Positions 5,599-32,796 of a stretch of 34,290 nucleotides of DNA are shown here, piece by piece. The stretch covers positions 1 to 34,290 of the forward strand of contig JANYKQ010000081.1 in assembly GCA_025358115.1 (NCBI GenBank). The letters run 5' to 3'. A program made the position numbers and the translations under genes. Under the pieces are notes generated by a model. That model did no database searches, had not been told where the DNA came from, and saw nothing but the letters and a program-made list of their open reading frames with translations. Source of the DNA: Methanomicrobiales archaeon (GTDB lineage: Archaea; Halobacteriota; Methanomicrobia; Methanomicrobiales; Methanospirillaceae). Within the stretch, counting starts at the first letter, position 1. Each line of letters begins with the position of its first letter.

Positions 5599-5670
5599 AG
5601 CCAAGGCCCGGAATTGAACCGGGATGTAGCTGATCTGCAATCAGCCGCGTGACCACTCCGCCACCTTGGC
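5599..5670 (-). tRNA. tRNA-Cys(GCA), copy next to pscS
   Basis: A 72-nt cloverleaf reads from 5670 down to 5599. The acceptor stem GCCAAGG pairs with CCTTGGC. The D-arm has a GCG/CGC stem. The anticodon stem GCTGA/TCAGC carries loop TTGCAGA, giving anticodon GCA with G37. The variable region has 5 nt and the T-arm is CCCGG-TTCAATT-CCGGG. The discriminator is U73, as expected for tRNA-Cys. No CCA is encoded. The 3' end is only 13 bases from the pscS start codon, so processing by tRNase Z would release a pscS mRNA with a very short leader. Confidence 0.93.
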
Positions 5671-5729
5671 ATTCTTTTTCAAAGATTCGCTTCAAGTTTT
5701 TACATCAGGATTTTTAAAATCCGGATAAA

Positions 5730-5800
5730 AGCCAGAGCCCGGAATCGAACCGGGTTGTGCTGATCTGCAGTCAGCTGCGTAGCCTGTCCGCCACTCTGGC
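5730..5800 (-). tRNA. tRNA-Cys(GCA), upstream copy
   Basis: A 71-nt cloverleaf reads from 5800 down to 5730. The acceptor GCCAGAG pairs with CTCTGGC. The anticodon stem GCTGA/TCAGC carries loop CTGCAGA, again anticodon GCA with G37, and the discriminator is U73. The T-arm is CCCGG-TTCGATT-CCGGG. It differs from the neighbouring tRNA-Cys in the acceptor stem, base 32, the D-loop and a 4-nt variable loop (ACAA), so it is a diverged isoacceptor and not a recent copy. The two genes are 59 bp apart in tandem and share a likely promoter upstream of 5800. Confidence 0.93.
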
Positions 5801-5964: not shown

Positions 5965-6069
5965 CCCCACCCACCTATTGACGATTGTTACGTTTTCCGG
6001 GCTAAGAGTACATACGGGAAAACCTTCAATTAACTGTAAAAAAAACCAATCATCCCATGAGTGCTTCCT

Positions 6070-6999
6070 ATGAAGATCCATGAAAATATCACGGCAACCA
6101 TTGGCAACACACCGCTCGTGCGGCTGAATTGTCTCACCCCCGGGGCCGGTGCAACGGTGCTTGTCAAGCTCGAGTCCTTCAACCCAATGAGCAGCGTCAA
6201 GGATCGGATAGCAGCAGCAATGATCGATGCAGCCGAGGCAGCGGGTCTCATTAAATCCGATACCATCATCCTCGAACCCACCAGCGGGAACACCGGTATA
6301 GGACTTGCAATGGTGGCTGCTGCCCGGGGATACCGGATCACGCTGGTCATGCCGGAGACAATGAGCATCGAACGGCGCAAACTTCTCAAAGCCTTCGGCG
6401 CCAATCTCATCCTCACTCCCGGAAAAGAGGGCATGAAAGGAGCGATAGGAAAGACCGAAGCCCTCCTTGCAGAGAATGCCCGGTATTTCTATATCCCCCA
6501 GCAGTTCCGGAACCCTGCCAATCCCGCCATTCACCAGAAGACAACAGCGGAGGAGATCTGGCGGGACACTGACGGGCAGGTGGATGCCCTTGTCGCAGGT
6601 GTGGGAACCGGGGGCACCATAACCGGGATTGCCTCTGTCATCAAACTCCGCAGGCCGGGATTCCGGGTGATTGCCGTGGAACCCGATACATCCCCCGTAC
6701 TCTCGGGAGGCCAGCCGGGTCCCCACAAGATCCAGGGTATCGGAGCCGGATTCGTTCCCGATGTGCTCCGGAAGGATCTTCTCGATGAAGTGATCCGTGT
6801 AACGTATGAAGACGCCATTGCAACCGCCCGCCGTATGGCTAAAGAGGAAGGGATCCTCATCGGCATCTCTGGCGGGGCTGCAACATGGGCAGCGCTCCAG
6901 GTTGCTGCACGAAAGGAGTATGCGGGTAAGACAATCGTTGTCATCATTCCGGATTCAGGGGAGCGGTACCTGAGCACGGAACTCTTTGATACCGGATGA
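6070..6999 (+). CDS. cysK: Cysteine synthase (O-acetylserine sulfhydrylase)
   Basis: This 309-residue fold-type II PLP enzyme converts O-acetylserine and sulfide to cysteine. I chose the ATG at 6070 ([19 protein letters not shown]), which gives the usual CysK N-terminus; a GTG at 6061 would add three residues. The PLP lysine is K44 in PMSSVKDRI. The phosphate-binding loop GTGGTITG and the substrate loop [11 protein letters not shown] are intact. The length is normal for CysK. It is followed after 9 bases by cysE, so acetylserine producer and consumer are co-transcribed. It is divergent from the tRNA-Cys/pscS operon, which makes cysteine on tRNA. The organism may therefore keep both routes. 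Confidence 0.95.
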
Positions 7000-7008
7000 G
7001 GACAGACT

Positions 7009-7974
7009 ATGGTTTTCGATTATATTCGGGAAGATATCAGGTCCATTTTATCCCAGGATCCGGCCGCACGCTCAACGATTGAGATCCTGTTCTGCTATCC
7101 GGGGCTCCATGCCCTCTGGTTCCACCGCCGGGTCCACTGGCTCTGGACTCATAATTGGAAATTCTGGGCCCGGTTTATCTCCCACATCAGCCGGTTTTTA
7201 ACGGGCATTGAGATCCATCCCGGTGCGGTGATCGGCCGCAGGGTCTTTATCGATCACGGTATGGGAGTGGTGATCGGTGAAACGGCGGAAGTGGGCGACG
7301 ATGTTCTCATCTACATGGGCGTGGTGCTGGGCGGCACGGCGCTTGAGAATGTAAAGCGCCACCCAACCATTGAAGATGGCGTCATCATTGGTTCAGGGGC
7401 AACCGTGCTCGGGCCCATACGGATCGGCAGGGGGGCAAAGATCGGTGCCGGGTCGGTCGTGGTCCGGTCGGTCCCGCCCGGTGCAACCGTTGTGGGGGTC
7501 CCGGGCAGGATTGCCGGGCCGGAGCACCTGTCGCCGGAAGAGGCAACTGGAAGCGTGATGCCTGACCCCATGCTCCGGGTCGTGAGCCGGCTGCTGGACC
7601 GGCAGAACCAGCTCGAAGAGAAACTCCGGAACCTTGAGCAGACCCGGACGGGCCCGGTCTCTCCGGTCGTCCGGCAGGAATTTGTCTGCGAAAATGAGGT
7701 CCGCGATGCCCTGCGGGAAGTGATCGATCCTGAGGTGGGCATAGATATCGTGGACCTCGGGCTCATCAAGGAGATCCGTATCAGAGATACCAGCGTGGAG
7801 ATCGATATGGTCCTCACCTGCAAGGCCTGCCCCCTGTCCGATCACCTTTCCGAGCAAGTGCGACGCAGGGCGCTCGGGGTCTGCGGTATTGAGCACGTAA
7901 CCGTGAACCTGCTGGATGAGCCATGGAACTGGGACCGTTTTGTCAAACAGCGGGGCAATCTCCGGCAGATCTGA
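7009..7974 (+). CDS. cysE: Serine O-acetyltransferase fused to a DUF59/MIP18-type Fe-S assembly domain
   Basis: This protein has 321 residues. Residues 1-175 are a short-form CysE that acetylates serine: helical N-terminus with [12 protein letters not shown] near 33-44, then a left-handed beta-helix with hexapeptide repeats, catalytic-type DHG at 82-84, GETAEVGD, and the C-terminal [11 protein letters not shown]. Residues 185-215 look like a short coiled coil ([17 protein letters not shown]), as seen after some bacterial CysE. Residues 228-312 are a DUF59 domain with [17 protein letters not shown] and [11 protein letters not shown] (Cys271, Cys274). DUF59 proteins take part in iron-sulfur cluster assembly. 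The coding sequence is continuous with no frameshift sign. A link between cysteine supply and cluster assembly is inferred. Confidence 0.93.
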
Positions 7975-8483: not shown

Positions 8484-8493
8484 ATAAATATAT
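8484..8493 (+). promoter_or_regulatory. Likely kdp promoter TATA element
   Basis: ATAAATATAT lies about 50 bp upstream of the kdpC-kdpA start codon, in the best A/T-rich block of the intergenic region and preceded by purines (AAAGG). A start near 8515 would leave a leader of about 25 nt containing GGGGGATT as a weak ribosome-binding site. Confidence 0.5.
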
Positions 8494-8538
8494 TCATGCG
8501 GTGAAATCCGGCATGGATCGACTCCGGGGGATTATATT

Positions 8539-10944
8539 ATGGATTCAAAAACCGTTCCGTCCATAATCCTTAACCAGCTCAAACCGGCGATTGTACTTTT
8601 TCTCCTGCTCACCATCATCACCGGCATTTTCTATCCGGTCTTGATCACCGGCATCGCCCAACTGGTCTTCCCTCTCCAGGCAAACGGGAACTTCATTGTT
8701 CATGACGGAAAGGTGGCTGGTTCAGCACTCATCGGACAACCCTTCACATCCCCGGGATATTTCTGGGGCCGTCCCTCCGCCACCTCCCCGGTACCGTACA
8801 ATGCCGGGCTCTCATCCGGTTCAAACCTCGGCCCTTCGAACCCAGCGCTCGTTAATGCAGTAAAGACAAGGGTAGATGCCCTCCATGCGGCGGACCCGGC
8901 CAATACACTTCCGGTTCCGGTTGATCTCGTCACGGCTTCCGGGAGCGGGCTCGACCCGGACATCAGTGTTGCCGCCGCAAACTACCAGGTCCACCGGATT
9001 GCCCGCGAGCGGAACTTCACCGACAGTGATGTCCAGGCGCTTGTAGCCAGCCATGTCGAGCCCCGGCAGTTCGGGATCTTTGGCGAACCCCGGGTGAATG
9101 TCCTGAACATGAACCTCGCCCTCGATGAGATGAGTGCTACTCACATTGTCCCTTCATCCCCGGTACCACAGGGCTTTGATTTTCCGGACGAACCGGGGCT
9201 TCGTATTCCTGACTGGATTGTCCTTATCCTTTTCATTGGAGTCTTCGTAGTTACAGTTGTCCCCCTGGGAAGATTCATGGTACATGTCCTCAAAGGGGAA
9301 CCGCATCTCCTCTCCCCCCTTACCGGGCCGCTTGAACACCGGCTCCTGGCATGGTCGCAGGTGAATGCCAAAGACGAGATGGACTGGATAACGTTTGCGA
9401 TTGCCATGATGGTCTTCTCGTTCATCGGGATCCTCTTCCTCTTCGTGCTACAGCTCACCCAGTCTGTCCTCCCGCTGAACCCCGCCGGCATAGGATCGCC
9501 ATCGTGGGACCTTGCACTCAATACTGCGGTCAGTTTCGTTTCCAACACCAACTGGCAGGCCTATGCCGGGGAGACGGGGGTCAGCTACCTTACCCAGATG
9601 ATGGGCCTGTGCGTCCAGAACTTTACCTCAGCTGCGACGGGGCTGGCGGTCCTTACCGGACTCGCGTATGGCCTCTCCCGCAAATCCGCATCCACCATCG
9701 GGAACTTCTGGGTCCTGCTCGTCCGGAGCGTGATGATCCTCCTGCCGCTCAGCATCATCATCGCGCTCATCCTCGTATCGCAGGGCACGGTCCAGACCTT
9801 CAGCGGACCGGTCATTGTTCAGCTTCTCGATCCGGTGAAGGATGCAAGCGGAGCATTCGTCACCACCCAGACCATTCCGCTCGGGCCCGCTGCCTCCCAG
9901 GTTGCGATCAAACAGCTTGGAGTCAACGGGGGCGGGTTCTTCAACACGAACTCGGCCCACCCGTTCGAGAACCCAACCCCTTTTGCCAACTTCATCGAGA
10001 TCATTGCAATACTCCTCATCCCGTCAGCACTCTGTTATTCGTTTGGGCGGATGGTCGGGGCCGGGAGGAAAGGCGTGAGTCTCCTCATCGCCATGACCCT
10101 TATCTTCCTGCCGCTCCTCGGCCTTGCCATCTGGGCGGAGCTGGGTGGCAACCCGGCACTTGCCGGCATGGGCATCGACCAGACCACAACCGACCTCCAG
10201 CCGGGCGGTAACATGGAAGGAAAGGAAGTGCGGTTTGGCATCACGGGCTCTGCCCTCTTTTCTGTAGTTACGACCGCTGCTTCCTGTGGAGCAGTCAACT
10301 CCATGCACGACTCCTTCACGCCGCTTGGCGGTTTTGTCCAGCTGCTGATGATGCAGTTTGGCGAAGTGGTGTACGGGGGCATCGGGTCCGGTCTCTATGG
10401 CATGCTCATCTTTGTGATCATCGCAATGTTTATTGCCGGGCTGATGGTCGGCCGAACACCTGAATATCTCGGCAAGAAGATCGAGCCGCGGGAAATGGCG
10501 ATTGCCACCATCATCATTCTCATCCCCATCTTCCTGATCCTCATCAGTACGGCAGTCGCGGTTCTCGTGGATTCAGGCAGGATCGCGGTCCTCAACCCGG
10601 GCCCCCATGGTTTCTCGGAGATCCTGTATGCGTTCACCTCTGCCTCACAAAATAACGGCAGTGCTTTTGCCGGCCTGTCTGCCAACAGCCTGTTCTATAA
10701 CCTCATGACCGCTGCCGGTATGTTCATCGGCCGGTTCGGTGTTGCAATTCTTACGCTCGCCCTGGCCGGTTCACTTGTGGTAAAAAAGATCGTTCCGGTA
10801 AGCGAGGGGACCCTGTCGGACCACCGTCCGCTCTTTCTCATCTGGCTGGTCTTTGTAGTCGTGATCATCGGGGCGCTCAGTTTCCTCCCGGCCCTTGCCC
10901 TGGGTCCCCTTGTCGAACATCTCATTCTTGGCGGGGGGGTATGA
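8539..10944 (+). CDS. kdpA: KdpC-KdpA fusion: K+-transporting ATPase subunits C and A in one chain
   Basis: The single 801-residue frame contains two Kdp subunits. Residues 1-198 are KdpC: an N-terminal membrane helix ([25 protein letters not shown]), then [38 protein letters not shown] and the end [13 protein letters not shown]. Residues 199-222 form a Pro-rich linker. Residues 223-801 are KdpA, the K+-selective channel-like subunit, with the four selectivity loops [11 protein letters not shown] (335), [19 protein letters not shown] (461), [16 protein letters not shown] (578) and [10 protein letters not shown] (701). In standard operons kdpA and kdpC are separate genes flanking kdpB; here C comes first and is joined. 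No stop or frameshift is visible in the linker. No kdpF is seen. kdpB follows after 3 bases. Confidence 0.96.
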
Positions 10945-10947
10945 TCC

Positions 10948-13053
10948 ATGCCTGAACCTGCCGGCACCCGGAACAACAAACCGGTACTACCCTTAATTTA
11001 CCGGCGTGCAGTGATCGATGCCATACTCAAGCTCGATCCGCGCCTGATGATAAAAAACCCGGTCATGTTCGTAGTCGAAGCCGGCAGTGCCTTAACAACC
11101 CTGCTCTGGCTGCAGGCACTTGCCGGCAATGGCGAAGCTCCTGCCGGGTTCATCGGTGCGATCTCGGCATGGCTCTGGTTCACCGTCCTCTTTGCAAACT
11201 TTGCCGAAGCCCTCGCGGAGGGGCGGGGCAAGGCCCAGGCAGAATCCCTGCGGAAGATGCGGCAGGACACACTGGCAAAGAAACTCTACCTTGGGTACGA
11301 GATCGTCAAAGGCCGGGAACCGGTTCCCGCTGATTATCTCGAAGTCTCCTCCTCAACCCTGCACAAGAACGACCTCCTATATGTCAAAGCCGGGGATACT
11401 ATCCCGGTCGACGGTGAAGTAACCGAGGGGATCGCATCGGTAAACGAGAGTGCGATCACCGGTGAAAGTGCGCCGGTCATCCGGGAATCCGGTGGGGACC
11501 GGAGTGCCGTCACCGGCGGTACGGTCGTCCTCTCGGACTGGCTCATCATCCAGGTGAGTGCCGGTGCCGGTGAAGGATTCCTCGATCACATGATCAGCCT
11601 TGTTGAAGGGGCAAAGCGGCAGAAGACCCCCAACGAGATTGCCCTCAATATCCTGCTCATCGGCCTGACCGCAGTATTTCTCGTTGTCTGCGCAACGCTC
11701 TGGGCATTCTCCGTGTACAGCGTGCAGACGTCCGGCTCAGGTATCCCGGTAACGGTCACGGTCCTTGTTGCCCTGCTCGTCTGCCTTGCACCGACCACTA
11801 TCGGGGGCCTCCTCAGTGCCATCGGTATCGCCGGGATGGACCGGCTCATCCGCCGCAACGTGATCACAACCTCCGGAAGGGCAATCGAGGCAGCGGGGGA
11901 CGTAGATGTCCTCCTGCTTGACAAGACCGGTACGATCACCCTTGGCAACCGGCAGGCCGTGGAGCTGGTACCGGTCGACAGCACGGATATCATGGACCTT
12001 GTAGAGACTGCACAGCTGGCATCGCTTGCCGATGAAACCCCTGAAGGACGCAGCATCGTTGTCCTGGCAAAGGAGAAGTACGGTCTCCGGGGCAGGACAG
12101 TCGGGGCAACGGAGTCCGGTGCCGGCATGCAGTTCATCGCGTTTACCAGCCAGACGCGGATGAGCGGCGTCGACTCTGGTGACATTCATATCCGGAAAGG
12201 TGCGGCAGATGCGATGTTCAGGCACATTGAAGCGTCCGGCAATCCCGTAACCGACGCACTGAAAAAGGAAGTCAATATAATCGCCCTTGCCGGGGGGACT
12301 CCGCTCGTGGTCACGAAGAACTGCAAGGCGCTGGGTGTTGTTCATTTAAAGGACATTGTCAAAGGCGGGATGAAGGAACGGTTCGCCCAGCTCAGGAAGA
12401 TGGGGATCAAGACGGTGATGATCACCGGTGATAACCGCCTGACTGCTGCAACCATTGCAGCAGAAGCCGGTGTCGACGATTTCCTTGCAGAAGCAACCCC
12501 CGAGAGCAAGCTCAACCTCATCCGCGAGTACCAGACCGGCGGGCGCATGGTGGCAATGACCGGTGATGGTACCAATGATGCACCGGCCCTTGCCCAGGCC
12601 GATGTCGCGGTTGCCATGAATACCGGGACCCAGCCTGCACGCGAGGCAGCGAACATGATCGATCTCGACAGTAACCCGACAAAATTAATCGAGATTGTCG
12701 AGATCGGTAAACAACTTCTCATGACCCGGGGGGCGCTGACCACCTTCTCGATTGCAAACGACCTGGCGAAATATTTCGTGATCATCCCTGCCGCATTCAT
12801 CACCACGTATCCCGCACTTGCTGCACTGAATTTCATGGGCCTCCACAACGCGATTCTCTCCGCCGTTATTTTCAATGCACTGATCATCGTTGTCCTCATC
12901 CCGCTTGCACTCCATGGCGTGACGTACCGCCCGATGACTGCCGAGGTTGCCCTGCGGAACAACATTGTCGTTTATGGCATTGGCGGCCTGGTCGCCCCGT
13001 TTATCGGCATAAAGATTATCGATATGGTGCTCGTACTGATGGGTGTGGTGTGA
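10948..13053 (+). CDS. kdpB: K+-transporting ATPase catalytic subunit KdpB
   Basis: This P-type ATPase subunit of 701 residues (E. coli KdpB is 682) hydrolyses ATP to drive K+ uptake through KdpA. The phosphorylated aspartate is D325 in [13 protein letters not shown]. The actuator loop is TGES at 171-174, whose serine is the inhibitory phosphorylation site in E. coli. The hinge motif [16 protein letters not shown] lies near 537-552. The TM segment [22 protein letters not shown] carries the characteristic Kdp sequence. Its start lies 3 bases after the kdpC-kdpA stop, and the run of G in the preceding stop region can serve as ribosome-binding site. kdpD follows after 6 bases with GAGGT overlapping the kdpB stop. 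Confidence 0.97.
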
Positions 13054-13059
13054 GGTCTC

Positions 13060-15051
13060 ATGGCTGTTACTCCTGAATGCCGTCCCGATCCCGATATGCT
13101 CCTCGCACGCATACAGGGAGAGGAGCGGCGAAAGCACCGGGGCAGGCTGAAGATCTTCCTGGGGTACATTGCCGGTGTAGGAAAGACCTACGAGATGCTC
13201 ATGGCGGCTCACCTCCGGCGTTTCGAAGGCATCGATGTAAGAGCAGGGTATATCGAGACCCATGGCAGGCCCGAGACCGAAGCGCTGCTGGAAGGGCTTG
13301 CCATGATCCCCCGCAAGCAGATGGAATACCGGGGAGTTCTCCTCCCGGAATTCGATCTCGATGCAACCCTGCTCTGCCGCCCGTCCCTGGTCCTTGTCGA
13401 TGAACTGGCCCACACCAATGTTTTCGGCTCCCGGCATGCCAAGCGCTACCAGGATGTCGAGGAACTGCTCGCTGCCGGCATCGATGTCTACACCACGCTG
13501 AATGTCCAGCACATCGAGAGCCTCAACGATGTGGTTGCCCAGATCACCAAAGTGCTCGTGCGCGAAACGATCCCCGACCGGGTGATCGATGAAGCCGACG
13601 AGATTGAAGTTGTTGATCTTGCACCCCCGGAACTTCTCCAGCGGCTGCGGGACGGCAAGGTCTATGTTCCCGATATGGCAGCACGGGCAATCGAGCAGTT
13701 CTTCAACGAGGGGAATCTCTATGCATTGCGTGAACTTACGCTCCGGAGGGCAGCCGAACGCGTAGACGAGCAGATGCTCGCGTATATGCAGACCCGGGCG
13801 ATCCCGGGCCCGTGGGCTGCAGGAGAGCACATCCTTGTGTCGGTCGGGCCGGGTCCGTTGTCCGAGAGGTTGGTGAGGACCGCCCGGAGGCAGGCCGACC
13901 GCATGGGAGCCCGGTGGACGGCAATCTATGTTGAGACACCGGCACATCACCGCCTTTCAAAAGAGGGAAAAGAACAACTGGCACGTACCCTGCAGCTTGC
14001 CGGCAGACTGGGGGCGACTACGGTCACCCTGTTCGGGCTCAATATCGCGTTGACTGTAATCGACTATGCACGCCGGCACAATATTACCCGCATCATCATC
14101 GGAAAGACCCTGCGTCCGCGCTGGCAGGAGTACGTCTTTGGGTCTATCGTTGACCAGCTCATCCACTACAGTGGCACGATCGATGTCTACGTTATCAGCA
14201 GCAGCGATCATGTCCAGCAAAACCTTGTCGACCTGGATCTCCTGCTCCCGGTAGTTCCTCCGAAGGATTACCTTGCAAGTATGGTGCTTGTCGCTGCCGT
14301 AACGATCATCGGGTGGCTGGTAAAGGAGATTATTTCACCCACGAATCTGGCCATGCTCTTCCTGCTTGCAGTTGTTGTTATCGCATTCAGGAGAGGGCTC
14401 CGGCCGGCAATCTTTACTGCAGTCATCGGCGTTCTTGCATTCGATTTCTTCTTCATCCCTCCCTACCTGACATTCCGGGTAACCGATACTGAATACCTCA
14501 TCACGTTTGCCGGTATGATCATCGTTGGTGCATTGATCAGCGTGCTCGTCACCCGGGCACGGGAACATGCCTTTGCAGCACAGGAAAGGGAAAACGAGAC
14601 CGGAACACTCTATGCACTTTCGCAGGACCTTGTTCGTGCGGTTGATGCCGATTCGATCATTGAGGCGGTTACCCGGCATATCCGGGAAATCTTCCAGTGG
14701 GACAGTGTCGTGCTTCTTCCCGATGAAGAACATCTTCTCATCCCCCGCTCTGGTACCGGTCTTGTCCTGAATGCAGATGATATCGCTGTTGCAACGTGGG
14801 CATTCCAGCATCGCAGCATAGCCGGTTATGATACCGATACCCTTCACGGATCCCCGCTCCGGTATATTCCCCTCCAGAGTTCGGCGGGAGTGCTCGGGAT
14901 CCTGGGAGTGAAACCAACGGAGCCGGATGGCGTCATCACGCATGAACAGGAGCGTATCCTCACCGCGTTTGCCAACCAGATTGCACTTGCCCTTGAGCGG
15001 GTGAACCTGGTCCGGACTTCCCGGCAACAGGAGAAAACTGGGGACATGTGA
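13060..15051 (+). CDS. kdpD: KdpD-like sensor without histidine kinase domain
   Basis: The 663-residue protein follows the KdpD domain order but stops early. Residues about 20-235 are the KdpD N-domain with Walker A-type GYIAGVGKT (35-43), LVLVDELAHTN (110-120) and YTTLNVQHIESLND (144-157). Residues about 255-380 are a Usp-like domain. Residues about 403-500 hold four membrane helices (DUF4118 type) with FFFIPPYLTFRV between. Residues about 515-655 are a GAF domain ending FANQIALALERVNLV. In E. coli KdpD the HisKA/HATPase region follows this point; here only 13 more residues and TGA occur, and no kinase fragment or kdpE lies downstream. The protein may sense K+ or turgor and act on the pump or on another partner. 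Confidence 0.93.
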   Translation: MAVTPECRPDPDMLLARIQGEERRKHRGRLKIFLGYIAGVGKTYEMLMAAHLRRFEGIDVRAGYIETHGRPETEALLEGLAMIPRKQMEYRGVLLPEFDLDATLLCRPSLVLVDELAHTNVFGSRHAKRYQDVEELLAAGIDVYTTLNVQHIESLNDVVAQITKVLVRETIPDRVIDEADEIEVVDLAPPELLQRLRDGKVYVPDMAARAIEQFFNEGNLYALRELTLRRAAERVDEQMLAYMQTRAIPGPWAAGEHILVSVGPGPLSERLVRTARRQADRMGARWTAIYVETPAHHRLSKEGKEQLARTLQLAGRLGATTVTLFGLNIALTVIDYARRHNITRIIIGKTLRPRWQEYVFGSIVDQLIHYSGTIDVYVISSSDHVQQNLVDLDLLLPVVPPKDYLASMVLVAAVTIIGWLVKEIISPTNLAMLFLLAVVVIAFRRGLRPAIFTAVIGVLAFDFFFIPPYLTFRVTDTEYLITFAGMIIVGALISVLVTRAREHAFAAQERENETGTLYALSQDLVRAVDADSIIEAVTRHIREIFQWDSVVLLPDEEHLLIPRSGTGLVLNADDIAVATWAFQHRSIAGYDTDTLHGSPLRYIPLQSSAGVLGILGVKPTEPDGVITHEQERILTAFANQIALALERVNLVRTSRQQEKTGDM

Positions 15052-28980: not shown

Positions 28981-29210
28981 AAGAAGTGCCGGGAACCGCG
29001 AAAGAAAGAAGAAAAAAGTGCTGAACTTAAAACGCAGAAGCCGGGCATATACTCACCTTATCCCACTATCGTATCTCACCCGCCCGTCATGTACAAAGAG
29101 GATACGGAATATCTCACCACAAACCTGATAGCTTATTGTCCTCAGCACCAACCGTATAGTGTATGACACCTGCCACGCCCGGTACTCCTCTGTCGTCACG
29201 GAACAATACC

Positions 29211-30371
29211 ATGGCTCAGTTTTTTTCCTCCCATCCCTCCCGGGCGGACAATTTTACAGAATCAGTGATCCGGGAGATGACCCGGCTCTCCCTGAAACAT
29301 AACGCGATCAACCTTGCCCAGGGCTTCCCGGACTTTCCCTGCCCTGCAGAACTGAAAGCCGCGGCCTGCGAAGCGGTCAACGAGGACTACAACCAGTACG
29401 CGATCACGTGGGGCGCACAGGACCTCCGCGAGGCGCTCGCCGCCCGGGTAGCGCAGTTCAACGGCATGACCTTCGATCCCCAGACCGGCATCACCGTCAC
29501 CTGCGGCTCAACCGAGGCGATGATGGCCTCGATGCTCGCCATCATCCAGCCGGGCGATGAAGTGATCGTGCCCGAACCGTTCTACGAGAATTACGGGCCC
29601 GACGCCCAGATCTCGGGAGCGGTGCCACGGTACGTCCAGCTTAAGGATGATTTCTCCATCGATGAAGAGGCCTGGAAGTCCGCGTTCAATAAGAAGACCC
29701 GGGCGATCATCCTCAATACCCCCAATAACCCGACCGGCAAGGTTTTTTCCAAAAAAGAACTCGCGTTCATCGCGGACCTTTGTATCGATCACAATGTGAT
29801 CGCCATTACGGACGAGATCTACGAGCACATCCTGTACGATGGCAGGAAACATGTCTCGATAGGAGCTCTTGATGGCATGCAGGACCGGACCATCACCATC
29901 GGGAGTTTCTCCAAGACCTACAGCGTGACCGGATGGCGTGTCGGGTATGCCCTGGCCGGCACCGAGATCACAGCACGGCTCCGGAAGATCCACGATTTCT
30001 TAACGGTGGGTGCACCCGCCCCGCTCCAGCACGCCTGTGTGGCGGCCCTCCGGTTGCCGGATGCCTATTACCATGAGCTGGCCCGGGAATATGATCGGAA
30101 ACGGCACATCCTCTTTGACGGGCTGAAGAAAGCCGGGTTCACCTGCCAGCTGCCGGAAGGGGCCTACTATATCTTTACGGATATTGCCGGGTTTGGCATG
30201 AAAGATACGGAGTTCGCCCGCTATCTCGTGGAGAAGGTTGGGGTGGCAGCGGTCCCGGGAAGCTCGTTCTATCACGAGGGGGGAGAGACGAAACTCCGGT
30301 TCACCTTCTCGAAGAAGGATGAGACACTGGTCGAAGCGTGCAGAAGGCTGGAGACGCTCGATCTGGGATAA
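29211..30371 (+). CDS. Class I PLP-dependent aminotransferase (possibly cysteate/aspartate aminotransferase)
   Basis: This 386-residue fold-type I aminotransferase has INLAQGFPDFPCPAEL near the start, NTPNNPTGKVFSKKEL, TDEIYEHILYDG, and the PLP lysine K235 in SFSKTYSVTGWRVGYA. I start at 29211 (MAQFFSSHPSRADNF); an in-frame ATG at 29163 would add 16 residues without family character. The substrate cannot be read from the sequence; relatives act on aspartate, methionine or aromatic amino acids. It converges, 39 bp apart, with a coenzyme M operon that lacks only the transaminase turning L-cysteate to sulfopyruvate, so that role is a reasonable inference. Confidence 0.9.
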   Translation: MAQFFSSHPSRADNFTESVIREMTRLSLKHNAINLAQGFPDFPCPAELKAAACEAVNEDYNQYAITWGAQDLREALAARVAQFNGMTFDPQTGITVTCGSTEAMMASMLAIIQPGDEVIVPEPFYENYGPDAQISGAVPRYVQLKDDFSIDEEAWKSAFNKKTRAIILNTPNNPTGKVFSKKELAFIADLCIDHNVIAITDEIYEHILYDGRKHVSIGALDGMQDRTITIGSFSKTYSVTGWRVGYALAGTEITARLRKIHDFLTVGAPAPLQHACVAALRLPDAYYHELAREYDRKRHILFDGLKKAGFTCQLPEGAYYIFTDIAGFGMKDTEFARYLVEKVGVAAVPGSSFYHEGGETKLRFTFSKKDETLVEACRRLETLDLG

Positions 30372-30381
30372 GTCGAACTAT

Positions 30382-30399
30382 AAAAAAAAAAATTTTTTT
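30382..30399. terminator. Bidirectional A/T-run terminator between convergent genes
   Basis: Eleven A followed by seven T fill the 39-bp gap between the aminotransferase and comDE. On each strand a T-run follows the stop codon within 10-30 bases, so the element can end both transcripts. Confidence 0.6.
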
Positions 30400-30410
30400 A
30401 ATTCTTTCAG

Positions 30411-31535
30411 TTACCGGGAGTTTTTCATCGCTGCCGAGAACCGGTCCCGGATCTCGTGCGGCGTGAGAGGGATGTTCTTTACCGAAGAATTACCGGGCTT
30501 CAGCAGCACGTGAATGAAGTTCGGACCTTTACAAAGTCCCCCGATAACCGCTGCCAGTTCAGTTTCCGTCTGGGCTTTTGTGGTGAACCGGAAACCTGCC
30601 GCAATGGCAAGCAGCTCGATATCCGTATCCCGGTATGCCGGGGTGAGCTGGTTACCGGTACTGCCAAATGCGCCATTGTCGAGACAGAAGATCGTGAGGT
30701 TATCCGGCTGACGGGCGCCGATAACCGGCAGGATACCGGTCCCAAGGATACTCCCGTCCCCGTCAATAACCCAGACATCGCGCCCGGTGCCTTCAGCAAG
30801 CCCGAGCCCCAGCGGCGAGGCCTGCGTGTAGCTCCCGAGCATGTAGAAGTTCAGGGGCCGGTCGTTTGCAGCATAGAGTTCCTTGCCGGGCACCCCGATG
30901 TTCGAGACTACGGCCTGCTCCTCAAGATGCCGGGCAATGACACGGATCGCATCGAACCGGGTCATCACCGGTTCAGTAATAGTCCGCTCATAGGAAACAG
31001 CTACCCGCCGGGCACGGGATGGGGGCGGGCACTCTTCCCGGCAGGACCCGGCTCCTTCCCATGCCTTGGGGAGCACGAGAGCCACATGGGGTCGCGAGTG
31101 GAGGAATGCATCGTCAATCACATCGCCAATCTTTACGAACTCTTCGTTCGTAAGGATAATGGTATACGGGATTTCAGTTGCCTCAAGGATCTTTGGGATC
31201 GCTGCATTGAAGGGCACCTGTGCGGGAATGATCTCGTCCTGCACCCCACGCCAGCTTGCGATGATGGGGAGCGGGAGATCGTAGGTCTTTGTCAGGGACA
31301 TGATGGCATTGAGCGAGTTGCCCAGCCCCGAACTCTGGATGACCATTGCCGGCCGCTGTCCGGCAAGAGCAAGACCGGCACAGACACCAATCCCGTCCTC
31401 TTCCCGGGTAAGGCAGGTATGGTCGAAGTGGTCGGGCAGCAGGAAACAGAGATCTTTTGCCTTGTCGCACGGGATTGACGCGATGTGGCTGATGCCGTGC
31501 TCTTTCAAGATATCGATAACGAGGTTCTCATACAT
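30411..31535 (-). CDS. comDE: Sulfopyruvate decarboxylase, alpha and beta subunits fused (ComDE)
   Basis: This 374-residue TPP enzyme decarboxylates sulfopyruvate to sulfoacetaldehyde in coenzyme M synthesis. Residues 1-165 correspond to the alpha (ComD) part, with the cofactor-activating glutamate E46 in TREEDGIGVCAG. Residues about 190-374 correspond to the beta (ComE) part, with the TPP/Mg motif GDGSILGTG at 259-267 through LDNG. In Methanocaldococcus the subunits are separate genes; a fused form is usual in Methanosarcina and relatives. The start overlaps the end of the cysteate synthase gene by 8 bp, so translation is coupled. It is the last gene of the operon. Confidence 0.95.
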   Translation of the reverse strand: MYENLVIDILKEHGISHIASIPCDKAKDLCFLLPDHFDHTCLTREEDGIGVCAGLALAGQRPAMVIQSSGLGNSLNAIMSLTKTYDLPLPIIASWRGVQDEIIPAQVPFNAAIPKILEATEIPYTIILTNEEFVKIGDVIDDAFLHSRPHVALVLPKAWEGAGSCREECPPPSRARRVAVSYERTITEPVMTRFDAIRVIARHLEEQAVVSNIGVPGKELYAANDRPLNFYMLGSYTQASPLGLGLAEGTGRDVWVIDGDGSILGTGILPVIGARQPDNLTIFCLDNGAFGSTGNQLTPAYRDTDIELLAIAAGFRFTTKAQTETELAAVIGGLCKGPNFIHVLLKPGNSSVKNIPLTPHEIRDRFSAAMKNSR

Positions 31536-32796
31536 GATTCACCATCTCCGCGAGTTCCGTTTTCACGTCTCCGGCAGTTGCTCCGGCCGGGACACAGAAT
31601 GCAGCCTGGACCGGGACAAGCGGGTAATCTTCCCGCACCCGCTCGTATCCCCCGCCAGTGATATTCAGGAGCACGGTCCGGCTCTTGTCGATGCTGCCGC
31701 TCTCGCACGCCCGGAGGAGCGAGGCTGTGCATACCGCAGCAGCGGGATCAAGGTCGATGCCTTCGAGTTCAGTAAACAGGGCCCCGGCAGCACGGGCCTC
31801 ACCATTTGAAACCGCATACATCCTGCCGTCTGTTGCCGACATAGCATCGAACACCCCGCCGGGAACCGCATAGGGGGGTTCGCGGTTGGTCAGCACATCC
31901 GAATACACACAGGATATACATTTTTGTGCATCCGGCATATCCGTCTCCGCGATGAGATCTCTCCGCCGGTCATTCCAGGCCGAGACCATCGGCACAAACG
32001 GGAGGTTCTGGCTGAGGTGGAGGGAGGGCAGGGCAGTCCCGAACCGCCCGTCAGCCTTGAGGCGCATCGCAGCTTCCCATGCCGCTATTCCCCCCGTGCC
32101 GCTGCCAATTGCCTGGAAATAGTAGTCCGGGATACGGCCGATGGTCACGGCCGCATCGAGCATCACGGTCCCCATGCCGTCCCGCCGGGCAACATTCCGT
32201 GCCCCCCCCTCCTCGATATAACCGGGCAGGGAGCAGACCTCGCGGCTGAAACGGATGGCGTCGGTGTAATCCCCCCGGACCGCAATCACGCAGGCCTTCT
32301 CTGCCGGAACAGTTGTCCAGAGCCGGGGCAGGGCTTTTTCCGGTACAACGACAACGACCGGAACCCCGGTCAGGGCCGAGACCTGGAGGAATGCCCGGGC
32401 GGTATTGCCGGCCGAAGCAATGACAAGGATCTTGTTCGTGGTCTCGCGGGCGCGGACCATGGTCGGGAGGGCTTCGAGCTCCTTGAACGAGCAGGTGGTG
32501 ATCTTCCCACCCCGTTCCGGCCAGTAACCGTTGAATCCGATATACAGGCTGGGGAGGCCCAGTTCACGGGCCAGTGCTTCACTCTGGTAACTGACCGGGC
32601 CTGCATCGATGGGCAGCGTGCCCTGGATCGGAAGCCAGCTGCCAAAGTGGAAGATACCGGGAGCGTTTTTAAGATTCAGTTGTTGTTCCGCGTAATCGGC
32701 CCGGAGAAGGGATGGATGACCCTGAGGGCAGGAAAGGGTATAATGCTCCGGTACCTCTTCGCCACAGTGGACACAACGGAGCGTGTAAGCACTCAC
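31528..32796 (-). CDS. Cysteate synthase (threonine synthase-like)
   Basis: This PLP enzyme of 422 residues is expected to replace the phosphate of O-phosphoserine by sulfite, giving L-cysteate, the first step of coenzyme M synthesis in Methanosarcinales and Methanomicrobiales. The N-terminus has a zinc-ribbon-like LRCVHCGEE..LSCPQGHPS (C8, C11, C23). The PLP lysine is K105 in CSFKELEA, and the phosphate loop SAGNTARA is at 128-135. Its assignment over true threonine synthase rests on family resemblance plus its place between comDE and a marker 16 gene. ATGA overlaps join it to both neighbours: 8 bp downstream and 4 bp upstream. Confidence 0.9.
   Translation of the reverse strand: MSAYTLRCVHCGEEVPEHYTLSCPQGHPSLLRADYAEQQLNLKNAPGIFHFGSWLPIQGTLPIDAGPVSYQSEALARELGLPSLYIGFNGYWPERGGKITTCSFKELEALPTMVRARETTNKILVIASAGNTARAFLQVSALTGVPVVVVVPEKALPRLWTTVPAEKACVIAVRGDYTDAIRFSREVCSLPGYIEEGGARNVARRDGMGTVMLDAAVTIGRIPDYYFQAIGSGTGGIAAWEAAMRLKADGRFGTALPSLHLSQNLPFVPMVSAWNDRRRDLIAETDMPDAQKCISCVYSDVLTNREPPYAVPGGVFDAMSATDGRMYAVSNGEARAAGALFTELEGIDLDPAAAVCTASLLRACESGSIDKSRTVLLNITGGGYERVREDYPLVPVQAAFCVPAGATAGDVKTELAEMVNHV

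Follow-up and report, generated by a model that had tools for sequence, protein, structure and literature searches.

The closest described counterpart of the system reported here is KdpFABC from Escherichia coli (a P1A-type ATPase; PDB 5mrw, 6hra, and others), in which the KdpA, KdpB, and KdpC subunits are separate polypeptides. E. coli KdpC consists of one helix and an outer domain located near the filter, and is static between states; within the available parts of two reports, its role was called uncertain and a β-subunit-like effect on affinity was suggested (PMC6255902, PMC8385062). Separate kdpA-B-C-D operons, found in archaea of the order Methanomicrobiales (G196, G225, G192, and G052) and in one genome of another class (G517), encode the same subunits as the locus described below and, in last position, a related KdpD, and differ from it in having a free KdpC behind KdpB. 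KdpC adjoins KdpA in kdpBAC(D-N) of Deinococcus radiodurans, in which KdpD is also shortened, as far as the accessible portion of the source describes it (PMC5716572), and in the plasmid-borne kdpA-C-B of Burkholderia arboris (L085); however, the genes are separate in both cases and C is located behind A, and neither arrangement is therefore a step toward a fusion with C first. Since the B-A-C (Deinococcus), F-B-A-C (Sphingobium), and A-C-B (Burkholderia) orders all exist, the statement in an initial annotation of this DNA that known kdp genes follow the order A-B-C was too broad.

The DNA analyzed (the window) was a stretch of 34,290 nucleotides from a Methanomicrobiales archaeon (contig JANYKQ010000081.1), and positions 8539..10944 of its forward strand formed a single ORF of 801 codons without an internal stop, referred to as kdpCA. 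From the ORF reading, Pfam, NCBIfam, and the alignment of relatives, it was divided into a KdpC part with one membrane helix and an outer domain (residues 1-196; 8539..9126, + strand), a linker (residues 197-224; 9127..9210, + strand), and a KdpA part, the channel-like subunit with filter loops (residues 225-801; 9211..10941, + strand). PF02669 (KdpC) matched residues 15-197 over profile positions 2-182 of 182 (251 bits), and PF03814 (KdpA) matched residues 231-795 over positions 2-548 of 548 (752 bits). The NCBIfam equivalog cut-offs were also passed: 239 against 153 bits for TIGR00681 (kdpC) and 700 against 388 bits for TIGR00680 (kdpA). KdpC chains in the PDB matched the KdpC part with E values of 2e-47 to 2e-46, and 6hra_A matched the KdpA part with an E value of 5e-174; the identities of the E. 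coli chains were 52% for KdpA and 47-48% for KdpC over the aligned residues. The full-length PF02669 match and the fold match thus identified a KdpC of the P1A type with one helix and an outer domain, and the full PF03814 profile and the filter positions identified a KdpA with filter loops. The complete KdpC and KdpA read earlier in one continuous frame were thereby borne out, also by the relatives described below, and the boundaries originally given (1-198 and 223-801) were right to within a few residues. When the whole protein and PF02669 were used as queries, kdpCA was found at one place only in its own genome, a Methanoregula-like draft of 97 contigs that is 70% complete.

Upstream of kdpCA, a TATA-like box, ATAAATATAT (8484..8493, + strand), which was read against the archaeal TATA-box consensus and is a candidate promoter, was located 46-55 bases before the start codon, and a weak ribosome-binding-site-like GGGGGA (8526..8531, + strand) was located 7 bases before the ATG. 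The kdpB gene (10948..13053, + strand; 701 aa; 981 bits for TIGR01497) started three bases past the kdpCA stop, and the TGES, DKTGT, and NDxAKYF motifs in its translation assigned it to the P1A-type KdpB. It was followed by a gene for a KdpD-like sensor (13060..15051, + strand; 663 aa) with KdpD, Usp, DUF4118, and GAF domains, in which Pfam detected no histidine kinase domain; the score for NF038185 (KdpD-like non-kinase sensor) was 351 bits against a cut-off of 550. KdpD-like frames of a similar length also came after kdpCA-B in relatives. In comparison with E. coli KdpFABC, the fused system shared the filter positions, TGES, DKTGT, and the ion-site motif, and differed in its single C-A chain with C first, in the order (CA)-B-D, in the absence of a detected KdpF and of the kinase domain of KdpD, and in that no response regulator was found among the 19 window ORFs scanned.

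Among the 232 Methanomicrobiales genomes searched, 32 carried full-length kdpCA in one open frame, at 33 loci in total (the window and its genome included). The kdpCA query matched 74 of the 232 genomes, again including its own: four further genomes had a piece spanning the joint (G002, G027, G172, and G204), three had pieces short of the joint (G162, G173, and G174), and KdpA and/or KdpC were apart in 35. One genus (g25) was mixed, with G200, G204, G205, and G207 fused and G201 apart. Six of the fused genomes were single contigs (G010, G017, G020, G175, G195, and G207), and the relatives found by name comprised Methanoregula sp. UBA247 and four Methanomicrobiales/Methanoregulaceae metagenome genomes (5 loci). 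Since C and A shared the frame in all 33 aligned loci, the system is a variant of KdpFABC, and the KdpC-KdpA fusion is genuine and conserved in this group of methane-making archaea. The single-contig genome G010 had two fused kdpCA-B operons (L072 and L073), with kdpD after one only.

Outside the order, no fusion was found in the 13 matching genomes of a 392-genome phylum sample, in 39 matching genomes of 237 from the class of G417, in 7 of 341 from the class of G400, or in 6 of 7 from the class of G241; these samples overlap, and some of the matches were pieces. There was also none among the matches listed for plasmids (60 of the 469 records with a match). The survey covered the archaeal order, the phylum and class samples, and plasmids; in a control list of 14 well-known genomes, which says nothing on the fusion, KdpC was found in five. 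Several candidates with a fused or split look were dismissed. In at least 21 plasmid records the best place covered at least 80% of the query, and all 21 were in two pieces; the three plasmid loci opened (Deinococcus, Burkholderia, and Sphingobium) had separate genes with C behind A. A row from G605 covering residues 152-800 contained five stops, KdpA and KdpB of G232 were in the same frame with a stop in between, and the KdpA-only place on contig 87 of G176, which had looked like a split gene, was a match running to the contig end.

The gene order was (CA)-B in 33 of 33 fused loci. The next gene was kdpD in 21 fetched loci and in the window itself, while 10 fetched stretches broke off inside kdpB, and no kdpD followed the second fused copy in G010. 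On the other hand, the unfused loci of the order that were fetched whole (G196, G225, G192, and G052) had the order A-B-C-D; eight others were fetched just through A-B, and, in unfused genomes with both places on one contig, KdpC was downstream of KdpA with a gap that fits KdpB. KdpC is thus absent from behind KdpB in the fused loci and is located before KdpA. In another archaeal class (G241, G232, and G273), kdpC came first and kdpA-kdpB later, as in L101 (3682-7034), where a Usp-like gene of opposite orientation stood between kdpC and kdpA-kdpB; G241 also had KdpF beside kdpA. This C-first order was rejected as a forerunner of the fusion because the KdpA of that class is far from the fused clade.

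The linker was 25-34 residues in length and in frame in all 33 aligned loci, while its sequence drifted. In the window, it was hydrophilic, with 28 residues and a net charge of -5; across relatives, it was variable, mostly acidic (with a negative median charge), and rich in small residues. The proline-rich character initially described applied to the window (6 Pro), but not to all of its relatives (1-7 Pro across the 33 rows). Column by column, the commonest residue had an average share of 0.39 in the linker versus 0.79 in both KdpC and KdpA. Among 26 close pairs, dN/dS was 0.06-0.14 for KdpA and 0.08-0.22 for KdpC (25 pairs computable), whereas the linker gave values of 0.13-1.68 (18 pairs computable). 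KdpC and KdpA are therefore under purifying selection, and the pattern in the linker is in keeping with a tether that is translated, but free in structure. In the KdpA filter, seven positions were tested (Q340, G464-466, G584, G707, and S708), and all were invariant in 33 rows, and TGES, DKTGT, and NDxAKYF were present in 20 of 20 full-length KdpBs beside fusions, a count from which 13 cut or split KdpBs were excluded. Individual damaged loci were also observed: a second kdpCA copy in G008 (contig 357; L075, 5863-8356, - strand) with the frame broken in the KdpC part, beside an intact copy elsewhere in that genome; kdpB in two pieces next to an intact kdpCA in G022 (L117, 6956-8948, - strand); and a copy in G027 with a break within KdpA.

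In E. coli, the N-terminus of KdpC is inside and its C-terminus outside, and the N-terminus of KdpA is outside. The loop after the first helix of KdpA had a net charge of +1 in the window, and in each of the 33 rows its charge was more positive than that of the linker; a negative linker with a more positive first-helix loop fits this topology, in agreement with the earlier proposal that it is compatible with the fusion. The predicted model of kdpCA was of middling confidence (mean pLDDT of 68.8 and pTM of 0.77), and pLDDT was lower than 50 in the linker (210-220), KdpC (67-101 and 125-138), and parts of the filter loops. TM-scores on the target were 0.89 for KdpA chains and 0.61-0.64 for KdpC chains. 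The model confirms the predicted folds of KdpA and KdpC only, and gives no placement of KdpC on KdpA.

These results led us to regard kdpCA, with high confidence, as a genuine fusion subunit of an ordinary P1A-type K+ pump in which KdpC is tethered to KdpA. The KdpC helix (N-terminus in) and outer domain would be made first, and the outer linker of approximately 28 residues would then lead into helix 1 of KdpA (N-terminus out). KdpCA and KdpB would together form the usual pump: K+ would pass from the KdpA filter through the tunnel to KdpB, where the use of ATP would free it inside, and KdpC, here tethered, would lie close to the mouth of the filter, its position in E. coli. The fusion would set C:A at 1:1, with KdpC already present while KdpA folds, and may plausibly help pump assembly. 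K+ pumping by KdpCA-KdpB is likewise probable from the conserved sequences, and does not look like the work of a new kind of pump, but that of a variant of the known Kdp. A more detailed picture, with a two-chain KdpCA plus KdpB pump lacking KdpF, KdpC as a β-like tether fixing the assembly order and K+ affinity, and a single origin in or near Methanomicrobiales followed by gene transfer between families, is put forward tentatively, as a serious possibility and not as the expectation.

The joined frame may in principle have arisen from an assembly or sequencing error that deleted a stop between adjacent genes, and the genome of the window is an incomplete draft in many contigs; however, the same fusion occurred in 32 genomes, including the six single-contig ones, with linkers of different lengths all in frame, and 33 open-frame loci led us to reject error or chance, the probability of which is practically negligible. 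Decay into a non-functional locus is hardly more probable: the broken second copy of G008, the break in KdpA of G027, and the split kdpB of G022 show that single loci do decay, while the low dN/dS in both KdpC and KdpA, the invariant filter positions, and the intact KdpB motifs led us to reject a pseudogene for the family as a whole. More weight, although still little, is due to the production of two proteins, either because KdpA is also initiated internally, at a codon in the linker or close to where KdpC ends, or because the linker is cut after insertion. A variable linker rich in small residues would suit this. Six of the 33 loci (the window, L005, L006, L008, L076, and L077) also had an in-frame start with a ribosome-site-like motif at residues 186-191, at the end of KdpC, the candidate in the window being the ATG at residue 191, and similar candidates from residue 199 on were found in three (L015, L016, and L073). 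However, 24 of the 33 loci had no candidate start between 12 codons before the linker and 12 after it, the candidates were at differing places with none common to most loci, and the site at 186-191 encodes conserved KdpC residues, which may account for the motif. Furthermore, the frame was held through the length changes in all 33 loci, which independent starts would not need. Two separate products are therefore unlikely, and KdpCA is probably a single uncut protein.

The initial annotation had also suggested that the fusion replaces KdpF. In six fused genomes (G000, the genome of the window, and G010, G195, G020, G094, and G207), PF09604 had no match next to kdp, which is in line with a fusion that matters mainly as a stand-in for KdpF, steadying the contact between A and B. 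However, none was found beside kdp in the unfused G196 and G503 either, and the linker is hydrophilic, whereas KdpF is a membrane helix; the suggestion was therefore not upheld, and such a stand-in role is very unlikely. Among the nine genomes tested, PF09604 was located beside kdpA in G241 only. Other matches (G207, G010, G195, G503, and a second in G241; E values of 0.009 to 3) were distant from kdp or on other contigs, and were discarded. This model is weak, with 24 positions, and matched 12 of the 14 control genomes at E values of up to 10; even at this threshold, it had no match in G000, the genome of which is 70% complete. Fused pumps may lack KdpF.

Phylogenetic trees were constructed after rows with short or weak matches had been removed. 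The 33 fused loci formed one side of a branch in the trees of KdpA (56 rows; support of 100/100) and KdpB (57 rows; 100/99). When four proteobacterial KdpAs were added and only 12 of the 33 fused rows were retained, the fused clade was sister to an unfused clade of the order and its archaeal kin (94/88). The unfused KdpAs of the order and G517 were ~48-56% identical to the fused KdpA among full-length rows, with second copies near 40% left out. In the KdpC tree (49 rows), there was no single fused clade: two changes were required, and one clade appeared in 2% of bootstrap trees. When four long rows were removed, two changes were again obtained, with one clade in 26% of bootstrap trees. A single-clade constraint was not rejected (AU p of 0.357). 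The KdpC part is short and fast, and its tree neither shows nor rejects one origin, which nevertheless appears probable for this part. In the most economical reading, the relocation of kdpC from behind kdpB to before kdpA would have occurred once, in an ancestor that belonged to Methanomicrobiales or was close to this order, and both genes would then have merged. Fused G037 and G060, from another family, fell among rows of the family of the window in the KdpA tree, and this placement suggests transfer of the kdp operon between families.

No description of a KdpC-KdpA fusion was found in the literature among the matches listed, which were mostly titles and abstract openings with few subscription journals, and the words "fused" and "fusion" were absent from the available part of the text of a P-type ATPase review (PMC10654040). 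The fusion is apparently undescribed, as initially supposed, while the architecture may be listed in domain databases because the sequences are public. A natural C-A fusion in some thirty species indicates that KdpC and KdpA can stay joined through the pump cycle, and fused kdpCA offers a ready-made construct for probing the role of KdpC. The locus also offers a clear example of a subunit gene being shifted within its operon and fused with the topology kept.

In other parts of the window, the Rfam scan found two adjoining tRNA genes (5599-5800, - strand) and nothing else. A hexapeptide-repeat acyltransferase-like protein, of the CysE type by its look, was encoded at 7009-7974 (+ strand) with a C-terminal PF01883 FeS-assembly P domain, an unusual fusion, and its gene adjoined that of a PLP enzyme resembling cysteine synthase (6061-6999). 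Genes for an aminotransferase, a protein with both the N- and C-domains of TPP enzymes, and a PALP enzyme were adjacent at 29163-32796, a set resembling a coenzyme M (cysteate) route.
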